Positions 15 to 19,745 of a DNA stretch of 51,978 bases are shown here, in pieces (position 1 is the stretch's first letter; each line of letters begins with the position of its first letter). Made by a program: the position numbers and the translations under genes. The DNA lies in the NCBI GenBank assembly GCA_026414385.1, contig JAOAJC010000004.1, positions 1 to 51,978 of the forward strand. Reading direction: 5' to 3'. The notes under the pieces are model-generated. The model worked only from the letters and a program-made list of their open reading frames with translations. It did not search any database and was not told where the DNA came from. The DNA is from Candidatus Pacearchaeota archaeon (GTDB taxonomy: Archaea > Nanobdellota > Nanobdellia > Pacearchaeales > GW2011-AR1).

Positions 15-2941
15 CAACCACTAACATCCAAACCACCAATTTTGTTACCTTCTATTCTAAAAAACTTTGTCTTAACAATATTAGTTATAGATGTTTTAGA
101 AACCCCAAAATCAGCCAACAATCCTTTTCTTTTCTCGCTCTCTCTTATCCTATTCAAAATTTCTTGCTCGTCTCTTATCCTATTTGCTATTGAATTAGCT
201 TCTTCCTTTGCACTTCTGATTCCAGCTTTTTCTAATTTCAAATTATAATACAAATCTCTTAACTCATTATAGGAATAAGCAACTCTTCCCTTCTCATCCA
301 TTCCCTTTAATGCTTCTACCCTCTGATCATTTGGAAATTCTTTTTTCAATTTTTCCAATAATAATTGTGAAGCTCTTTGCGAATCAACGCTATCTCCCCC
401 AGCAAATATGTTTTTCTTTGTTGTTATTCCAGGGCTATTCTCTATGTTTTTTATTTCATTATTAACTTCATTTAAGGTCTTCTTCCTCATCTCAATCTCT
501 CTGTTTATATCTGCCTCATTCGCATTTAAGCACTGTGTTAAACTATAATACTTATTTCCAGGTCCTGACATAGCCCTACATCTCTCAATCCAGCCATTCT
601 TTCCACTCATTGTCTGTTCTCTCGCCATTGCCCCGCCACTAAATCCCAAAATAGTATTTTTCAATATCAAAGCACTAGAAGTTGCAAAACAAACGCTCTT
701 CATTGCTGTCACAACCTTTCCTAACTTTTCAGATATTTTCTCAAAATCATTTATTGTCTTGTTTAAACTCTTTATTGCCTCTCTCTTCCTGTCAGGACTT
801 AATTTTATTGCTCTTTTTTCTATTCCTATTTTTATTGTTAAATTAGTTTGTGTTGTCGTCCCTGCAACTTTTGGAGTCAATATGACTTTGGCAACTTTCG
901 CCATTTCAACTTTTTCCAATCTAATATTTTCTCCAGAACCCTCGCATAATTCCTCCCCGCTCGTTCCTAATTTCATTGTTTTAGTTTTCTTTAATTCTAT
1001 TGTCGCACCTCTCTGAGCAGCAACCCTACAATAAACCCCCACCTCAACCTCTTCCGAACTTATTACCTTATTTAACCTTAAATGCGTTATCTTTTTCGCT
1101 GTCTTTGAACTATCCATTCTAATTTCATTATCAGAAATTGTCTTTCCAATGAAACTTCTATTTCCAGAAAATTCTTCTTGTTCTAAATTCACAATTAAAT
1201 TATTAATGCTAAAATCAGCATTTGGTTTCTTTATTAGTTCAAAAACATCAACCAATCTTATTATCCTAAATTTCCCATCAATTTTTCCATTAAATACAGC
1301 ATTTTCGTCACTAAAAACAATCAACCTATTTAATTGTTCTTTATAACTTTCTATCTCTTTTGAGTTAGGATATTTTTCTATTAACTCTTTCAAAATTTTT
1401 ATCTCTGTCTCTTTTTTGTAACCAATTATTTTTGGTTCTCTCGCTAACTCTAACGCCCTCTTCAACGCAATCTCCCCATACAAATCAGAACCCTCTACCT
1501 CTGACTTTCTCTCAGCAGGATAATCTCTTGCGACTTTCAGATACGCTTCTATTGCCTCATTAAAAGCTTTCTCAGCATCCTCATTTGGTAAAGGAATATC
1601 AAAAAATATTCTGCTTTCCTCGGCTTTATCACTCTTTTCACCAATCCGACTTATTTCCAAAAGTATATTTCTTAACTGCTTATACCAACCCTCATTTGAT
1701 TTATACTCATTACCAACATCTTCTTTTTCATTAACAACAACCTTATCTAACTTATCAAGACTCTCTCCAAAAAACAATTTATTGCTTATATTAATCCCAT
1801 AAAACCCTTTCTTTATTAGTCCGACATCTTGTTTTAACTCAACATACCAATACACGCGATTATCTTTAGAATATTGTTTAGGAATAAGTACTTTTCCATC
1901 AGGCGTCTTTAATTCCCTCACAAAAGAACTATCTCTTAATTTCAATTCTAACGCAAAATTTCCAACACCTCTACAATTTAAACTAACCTTTCCTGTTCCA
2001 GGAGTTTTCCCGGCTTCAACTTTATAAACCTTACATCTTCCATTATCAAATGTTGTCCCTTCTGTTACAACATAACTATTTGTTCCATCATCACTTGTTA
2101 CCTCTATTCTTGCTCTCTTTACCCCAGAAACATATCCTGAAAAATAAGCATCTAAACCTGCCTGGCAATAATATCCCGGCAAATAAAAAGTATTTGCACT
2201 CTTTCCCAATTCTGCTTTTATCTCGCCGATTTTTAAATCTCCCTGATAAACTCCAAGATAAGCATTATTTGCGTCACTCCCTAACAATCTTAAAAAATAT
2301 CTTCCATTCCAAAAACCATATTTAGTTTTCTCGCTCTCCCATTTAGCATCACTTACCTCTTCTAATAAAAATTCCGTTCTGCCTATGCCGATTGCATTCC
2401 CTGCCTCATACTCAATCTGTCCTGTCAAATTAACCTCAACATAATCAGATAAATTTTTCTCAACAGGATTTCTCTTTAGAATTATCACAGCATAACCAAT
2501 ATTATTTATTAACGGACTATTTAATAATGTCTCTCTTGTCCTTAAAGCCGCTCTAGCAGGATGAAATCCAACTCCAGCAACTTCTTTTGGATAACTCCCA
2601 ACGAATCTTATGTTATCTATTGATTTAATATTTAACAACGGATTAATTTGTAAAGCTTCAATCTGACAAAATACAGGCACGTTTTGCTCAGCCAACAAAT
2701 CACTTCTAACCACCATTGGCTCGCACCCAGCTATCCCTGTCTGCAAAATAAAATCTTGCCTTGCCTTGCAATCTTCTACACTTGCAACTTGCGGCCAATA
2801 AACACTCACTCTTCCAGCATAATATGTCTGATAATTCGGCTGCATCTGATAACTTGAATAAAACCCGCTTGCAGCACTTATTAAATCTGCACTAAACAAA
2901 ATCATTAGAAAGGTTAAAACAAATAAAATAATTTTCCTCAT
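15..2941 (-). CDS. Large secreted protein, C-terminus truncated by contig edge; Sec-type signal peptide and TPR-like helical segment
   Basis: Reverse strand from ATG at 2941 (MRKIILFVLTFLMILFSADLISAASGFYSSYQMQ...) stays open to the contig edge; absent from ORF track because it has no stop. Confidence 0.85.
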
Positions 2942-5576: not shown

Positions 5577-5695
5577 GCCTGCATAGCTCAGTCGGTAGAG
5601 CAACAGTTTTGTATAATGCGATTGCATCGCAAACATTTGATGCAATATGCACTCAAATGAACTGTGGGTCGGGGGTTCGATTCCCTCTGCAGGCT
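5577..5695 (+). tRNA. tRNA-Thr(TGT) with 46-nt intron (5614..5659) at position 37/38
   Basis: Acceptor GCCTGCA/TGCAGGC, anticodon stem ACAGT/ACTGT, T-arm GGGGG-TTCGATT-CCCTC; canonical BHB: central helix TTTG/CAAA with 3-nt bulges TA|T and TG|A. Confidence 0.92.
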
Positions 5696-5798
5696 TTGTC
5701 TAATGGGAATCGAACAGGTTCGATTCACTTCAAAACTCCATGTTTTGAAGTCACAGCGGAACGAAGTTCTGCTCGTGCCTCTGCAGGCTTTGTCTAAT
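5684..5798 (+). repeat. tRNA-3'-end-linked element (Thr): 21-bp direct repeats CCTCTGCAGGCTTTGTCTAAT (5684..5704, 5778..5798) flanking anti-T-arm, T-arm copy and 51-nt two-hairpin core
   Basis: Direct repeats 94 bp apart; anti-T-arm GGGAATCGAAC 5705..5715; T-arm copy GGTTCGATTC 5717..5726; core 5727..5777. Confidence 0.9.
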
Positions 5799-19580: not shown

Positions 19581-19654
19581 GTCCCCATAGTTCAGCCTGG
19601 ATAGAATGCGACCTTGCGGAGGTTGAGACCGAGGTTCAAATCCTCGTGGGGACA
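19581..19654 (+). tRNA. tRNA-Arg(GCG)
   Basis: Acceptor GTCCCCA/TGGGGAC, anticodon arm CGACC-TTGCGGA-GGTTG, T-arm CGAGG-TTCAAAT-CCTCG. Confidence 0.93.
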
Positions 19655-19745
19655 TAGATTTGAACCGAGGAGAGGTTCAAATACTTCAACTTCCACGAAG
19701 TTGAAGTCCCAGAGATCGAAGATGCTCTGAGCCTCGTGGGGACAT
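19642..19745 (+). repeat. tRNA-3'-end-linked element (Arg): 14-bp direct repeats CCTCGTGGGGACAT (19642..19655, 19732..19745) flanking anti-T-arm, T-arm copy and 49-nt two-hairpin core
   Basis: Direct repeats 90 bp apart; anti-T-arm GATTTGAACC 19657..19666; T-arm copy GGTTCAAAT 19674..19682; core 19683..19731 with 11-bp perfect hairpin ACTTCAACTTC-CAC-GAAGTTGAAGT. Confidence 0.9.

Follow-up and report, generated by a model that had tools for sequence, protein, structure and literature searches.

Results

The window analysed here, the whole stretch of 51,978 nucleotides, is contig C30 of a Pacearchaeota genome (G000; 565 kb in 35 contigs). At 5577–5695 on its plus strand lies an intact tRNA-Thr(TGT) gene with an intron in the anticodon loop (Rfam RF00005, 58.3 bits; ARAGORN run with introns), which ARAGORN at default settings misses. 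The 3' end of this target gene together with its flank, CCTCTGCAGGCTTTGTCTAAT, is present at 5684–5704 (B1) and again at 5778–5798 (B2), and all the features between the two copies are likewise assigned to the plus strand. The copies form a 21-bp exact direct repeat (family D1), 94 bp apart, as the initial annotation stated. B1 is followed at 5705–5715 by an inverted T-arm (invA), GGGAATCGAAC, the exact reverse complement of GTTCGATTCCC from the tRNA's own T-loop and T-stem, and at 5717–5726 by a second T-arm 5' half with its T-loop (A2), GGTTCGATTC (repeat D3); both had been pointed out earlier and both are there. The core that remains folds into two hairpins, again in agreement with the first reading. 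HP2, ACTTCAAAACTCCATGTTTTGAAGT, occupies 5727–5751 and has a 10-bp stem; HP3, CACAGCGGAACGAAGTTCTGCTCGTG, occupies 5752–5777 and has an 8-bp stem with a GAA loop and outer pairs, an assignment made from the fold and from covariation.

Two details of that reading need adjustment. The core does sit between the T-loop and the 3' T-stem of the second copy, but on the T-loop side 'exactly' holds only to within 1 nt. The duplicated block was correctly identified as tRNA 3' end plus flank, but its length of 21–22 bp is rather long: the block generally corresponds to about tRNA nucleotides 61–73 and a few flanking bases, and measures 13–17 nt at most loci. The stretch at the Thr locus is strongly structured (folding z-score -4.66; none of 200 shuffles equally stable), and the covariance model CM R2, which has two helices and rests on 30 copies, matches across its hairpins at 5719–5775 with an E-value of 5.2e-8. 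A first model (R1) was dropped, its RNAalifold structure having one helix only. At the gathering score, Rfam matches in the whole window are tRNAs only, leaving the element without a match to a described RNA family.

The second copy that had been reported at 19.65 kb is real, with the parts in the same order as at the Thr locus, a 14-bp direct repeat, CCTCGTGGGGACAT, and a 90-bp period. The target is an intact tRNA-Arg(GCG) at 19581–19654, and all parts are on the plus strand: B1 (CCTCGTGGGGACAT, 19642–19655), the inverted T-arm (ATTTGAACC, 19658–19666), A2 with the second T-loop (GGTTCAAAT, 19674–19682), HP2 (ACTTCAACTTCCACGAAGTTGAAGT, 19683–19707), HP3 (CCCAGAGATCGAAGATGCTCTGAG, 19708–19731, from sequence and a stem search) and B2 (CCTCGTGGGGACAT, 19732–19745). 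CM R2 matches at 19676–19731 (E 1.1e-6). Among the 3' flanks of all 40 tRNA genes found in G000, a third full copy lies 3' of tRNA-Leu(TAA) on contig C5, where the hairpin pair is on the opposite strand and reads GATTCGAAC-ACTTCAACTTTCCCAAAGTTGAAGT-CACCGCGGAGCTATGCTCTGCGTGTG on the minus strand. The three sites in G000 that match the HP2 pattern, and likewise the three model matches, are these Thr, Arg and Leu copies. An inverted T-arm alone is found behind tRNA-Cys (L007) and one more tRNA (L036).

Two further features of these tRNA flanks were seen. Immediately after tRNA-Leu(TAA) with its two repeat elements comes a tyrosine recombinase gene (G000:C5:1994–3188; L236, L037); none of the other carriers checked showed such a neighbourhood. 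Another repeat family, TCTTTGTTCACCGCAG...GTGAATCAAAGAT, whose ends are complementary, begins right at the 3' end of several tRNAs, including tRNA-Leu and tRNA-Thr(CGT) in G000 (L031, L037, L006, L035), and has related copies in G068 and G041.

Many genomes have HP2 and HP3 behind their tRNAs, with nearly all isotypes represented, and the loci share a consensus anatomy. An intact tRNA is followed by its native flank (sometimes with a terminator-like hairpin), an inverted T-arm, a short segment, the T-loop TTCRANT(C), HP2 of the form ACTTCAA..TTGAAGT, a linker (TCC, CCC or CAC), an HP3 of 8–11 bp, AG or TAGGA, and then the tRNA 3' end again. The insert at tRNA loci is about 60–260 bp long, around a core of some 50 bp without a gene. 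The last 13–14 nt of the tRNA recur 59–275 bp downstream at 57 tRNA loci, in most of which the end of the repeated block coincides with that of the tRNA or is a few nt off. Of 51 hairpin-bearing tRNAs, 42 are accompanied by another copy of their own 3' end, differing at no more than one of 10 nt, as against 1 of 51 in shuffled sequence, and an exact inverted T-loop is present at 21 of these 51 loci (0/51 shuffled). A2 is the host tRNA's own T-loop at 24 of the 26 loci measured (permuted mean, 7.4). Since the host tRNA is matched by the second 3' end, the inverted T-loop and A2, these flanking parts stem from the target and the hairpins do not; the element itself does not seem to carry the copied tRNA parts. 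Repeat lengths run from 13 to 44 nt and more, tandem units included, and no classical target-site duplication of fixed length exists across the repeat-bearing tRNA loci, which counts against a mobile element.

A DNA search with the Thr locus found related material within its own family. The pattern of T-loop plus HP2 matches 21 of 181 family genomes, up to 16 times per genome, while the reversed pattern gives isolated matches. CM R2 matches 46 of the 181 family genomes and 1 of 19 other genomes of the order; a carrier genome has up to 27 matches, at different loci. Among 371 genomes drawn from across the phylum, 12 genomes with matches belong to the own family and 5 to others. Carriers outside the own family number only about six genomes in the phylum, and none of the other-family matches inspected adjoins a tRNA. 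In the GTDB species set, the archaeal pattern matches carry the titles Nanoarchaeota, Pacearchaeota, Nanoarchaeia or 'archaeon', plus one Euryarchaeota MAG, in which no HP3 was shown. Bacterial pattern matches were rejected as copies, since they are without HP3 and their number is about that expected by chance on our own estimate. A viral origin was likewise rejected: the 8 pattern matches in viral contigs are chance-like, in coding-type sequence without tRNA or HP3. The same anatomy in genomes from many projects rules out an assembly artefact. The literature searched contained no description of tRNA-linked palindromic elements in Pacearchaeota or DPANN.

Such loci could in principle arise with no mobile element at all, by hairpin-driven replication slippage or template switching at tRNA genes, in which the T-arm and 3' end would be tandemly duplicated and copied by fold-back, and the hairpins would be made locally and homogenised by recombination between tRNA-adjacent arrays. 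All the tRNA-derived pieces match the local tRNA, as this requires, and their repeat length is variable. There are also tandem units (90 bp x2 in G081; 94 bp x3 and 144 bp x2 in G008), and the G008 Trp array contains nested and inverted copies, including an inverted copy of the whole core. Favourable too is a mirror image of the 3'-end phenomenon in G068, where copies of the tRNA-Phe 5' part, GGGGATGTAGCTCAT, stand in tandem upstream of the gene, separated by hairpins (contig C8, L204, about 210–390, minus strand). However, the signature ACTTCAA..TTGAAGT plus a TCC/CCC-hairpin is shared by unrelated tRNAs, by other RNA genes and by different genera, among them members of other families of the phylum. 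Such recurrence needs a shared source, which argues against slippage and leaves it an unlikely account, if one with several observations in its favour.

Several observations bear on mobility. Hairpin cores at different loci resemble one another more closely when they come from one genome (0.75) than when they come from two (0.68), a difference reached in none of 1000 permutations. The carrier tRNAs of G000 are Thr, Arg(GCG) and Leu(TAA), 3 of about 40; those of G062 are Trp, Leu(TAG), Glu (two), Met, Arg(TCT), Cys, Ala and others, so that the occupied sets of these relatives, which belong to different genera, largely differ. The tRNA-Thr of G062, divergently arranged with a tRNA-Val as in G000, has neither the hairpins nor a second 3' end, but its flank has diverged too far for an exact empty site to be delimited. 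Equally scoring copies are present at several loci in G180.

Copies are also found away from tRNAs. One lies inside the G068 RNase P RNA (RF00373, 81.8 bits, just below the 84-bit cut-off), others lie in intergenic DNA with the outer stem CTGCGC/GCGCAG, a non-tRNA site in G062 has a copy with a direct repeat of about 34 bp, and some copies are in ORF-like contexts. This range of sites is how small palindromic mobile elements behave. It qualifies the description of the element as tRNA-targeting, which holds as a preference but fails as a strict rule, since the RNase P RNA and intergenic copies exist. As separate observations, one gene cluster (G068:C23; L205, L206, L207) has three copies of a 38-codon ORF with such a hairpin pair, two of them with MIAAKHNHKFRGKVKDFKIFNFEVPKIFNFRKNRGGCL and the third with a variant, and larger nested palindromes surround the double hairpin in two species (L251 and L281 in G111, L275 and L286 in G082), readable as protein with a recurring YSKSS-like motif.

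The hairpins covary. In HP2 the foot, TTCAA/TTGAA, is invariant, and the upper stem varies but is mostly paired. All eight measured pairs of HP3 change on both sides, and HP3 is 98.8% paired as against 59% in shuffled sequence, the percentage being inflated by the picking of stems as best stem. For the given structure on a MAFFT alignment the covariation score is 0.214, as against 0.102 after shuffling, and none of 500 shuffles reaches it. The real structure beats most slid structures; a slide of +1 ties with it on the covariation score, in our view through a one-column misalignment of one HP3 subtype. The covariation supports a constraint on pairing, which is expected of a mobile hairpin and of a functional RNA alike.

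A functional, structured RNA linked to the tRNA, for instance a 3' trailer that RNase Z removes or that makes the tRNA change from one fold to another, would account for the covarying stems. It would also fit the in silico preference of the 5' acceptor strand for the second 3' end at 56 of 59 loci. That preference, calculated with one set of energy parameters, is nevertheless retained when the middle is swapped between loci (55/59) or shuffled (54/59); since these controls behave alike, it is a property of the energy model and not of the element, and the pairing loses its value as evidence for a switch. A function for the tRNA also accords poorly with the 3 of about 40 G000 tRNAs that carry the element, with carriers that differ between relatives and with copies that have no tRNA at all. 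A functional RNA thus seems quite improbable.

The carriers were searched for enzymes that could mobilise the element, and none was identified, a point against mobility. Y1_Tnp (PF01797) has no match in seven element-rich genomes (G000, G008, G062, G081, G038, G100 and G068), and mobilisation of the RAYT/IS200 type was rejected on this ground. Tyrosine recombinase domains are present in all 12 carrier genomes, in G000 just behind the Leu(TAA) copy. Such a domain is expected in most archaea, and the best matches appear, in our reading of their size, to be mostly general XerA-type resolvases. Cas1 (PF01867) is present in 2 of the 12 carriers and absent from the other 10, including the richest. 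The source genome itself has a Cas1 gene (G000:C2:3178–4014), unlike most related carriers.

Integration by a tyrosine recombinase would make the element a mini-island, recombined into the T-loop and restoring the tRNA 3' end. The regenerated tRNA with a displaced fragment is indeed the anatomy of tRNA-integrated islands (PMC4383910), and a tyrosine recombinase domain is there in all 12 carriers searched. Those islands, however, are mobile DNAs that tyrosine integrases insert, while the insert here is 60–260 bp, too short for an integrase gene, and sits at many isotypes. Moreover, under conservative recombination every element would have to arrive with precisely the 3' end of the tRNA that it enters. 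The same hairpins are found at nearly all isotypes, with perfect matches to the local tRNA, so the tRNA copies are more likely to be made from the target. Since invA, A2 and the hairpins are not att-like either, and the recombinases seem to be of resolvase size, a mini-island is very unlikely.

Integration by Cas1, as in casposons or CRISPR, with a 14-bp target-site duplication at tRNA 3' ends, is the least probable reading and hardly tenable. Casposons do target tRNA 3' ends, with duplications of about 14 bp (14–15 bp for casposases; PMC6977970), and the repeats here are also of tRNA 3' ends and in many cases 13–15 nt long. But Cas1 is mostly missing from the carriers, no casposon-like terminal inverted repeats were seen, and the position in the tRNA is different: the block here starts at the T-loop, while in Methanosarcina mazei the duplication has no more than the final 4 bp in common with the tRNA (PMC6977970).

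Discussion

The double-hairpin family with a preference for the tRNA T-arm is best read as a new family of mobile elements. It is probable that these are non-autonomous mobile double hairpins with a core of about 50 bp and a strong preference for sites just 3' of the tRNA T-loop, on either strand. At tRNA loci, we read the insertion as coming with target-derived copies that leave the tRNA intact. The first description, of a tiny element that targets tRNAs and regenerates its target, therefore stands descriptively, given the many isotypes, the host-matched copies of T-loop and 3' end and the differing carriers, and the finding extends further than was first reported.

How such an element moves may be read in part from these pieces. 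The hairpin pair would be copied into a new site that itself forms a hairpin, either T-arm DNA that is single-stranded or cruciform, or the corresponding RNA. Insertion or repair would then re-copy the T-arm region of the target, first inverted and then direct, together with some 13–14 nt from the 3' end of the tRNA. Upstream, the functional tRNA would survive, and the displaced T-arm and 3' end, split by the two hairpins, would stay downstream. At a guess, mobilisation might be due to template switching in host replication or repair, or to an enzyme encoded in trans. Structure-guided copying at hairpins during replication or repair is favoured, with low confidence, because Cas1 is mostly missing, Y1 is missing from all seven element-rich genomes and a tyrosine recombinase domain is expected in most archaea. 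A new, non-autonomous mode of mobility in DPANN archaea can be put forward tentatively, as a possibility clearly less secure than mobility itself: a double hairpin copied into T-arm hairpins by structure-guided template switching, with the T-arm copied twice (inverted and direct) and the 3' end once, preserving the tRNA while the element carries no tRNA sequence.

Several known systems share some of these features. REP/REPIN elements are short paired hairpins in multiple copies, as here, but they go with a RAYT (Y1) transposase, of which the seven element-rich genomes show no Y1_Tnp. Archaeal tRNA introns include transposed non-canonical ones, inserted near tRNA position 60 and spread between the tRNAs of one genome, two points in which the present element resembles them. 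Here, in contrast, the intact tRNA is uninterrupted upstream, and an intron was rejected, with a bulge-helix-bulge within 4 nt of the junctions at 0 of 40.

The element is multi-copy, gene-less, palindromic and dispersed, as small mobile palindromic repeats generally are, and the closest known kinds are the Rickettsia palindromic elements (RPE) and the mitochondrial double-hairpin elements. RPE, the best-known case of such elements, are small mobile palindromic repeats in intergenic DNA, protein genes and RNA genes, including those for RNase P RNA (M1) and tmRNA (PMC2229807), and the present copies in RNase P RNA and intergenic DNA resemble them in this. They are, however, stem-loops of 105–146 bp with terminal inverted repeats, compared with a double hairpin of about 50 bp with a T-arm preference and a copied tRNA 3' end, and no such relation to tRNAs is described for them in PMC2229807. 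Mitochondrial hairpin and double-hairpin elements of fungi and sponges lie in intergenic DNA and RNA genes, at frequencies that differ between close relatives (PMC2800124). Compared by description, they are similar in size, and the double-hairpin elements have in common with ours the unit of two adjacent hairpins; those of Allomyces are described as free of flanking duplications (PMC2800124), in contrast to the duplicated tRNA 3' end found here at most hairpin-bearing loci.

Tiny DPANN genomes are thought to be streamlined, yet in one family the hairpin elements number up to dozens and in many cases lie at the most conserved genes. The elements explain many unannotated bases behind archaeal tRNAs, where annotations of tRNA fragments or split tRNAs need care. 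Each copy bears an imprint of its target. The way in which gene-less palindromic repeats insert, long a question for RPE, REP-like and mitochondrial hairpin elements, is thereby on record in these loci.
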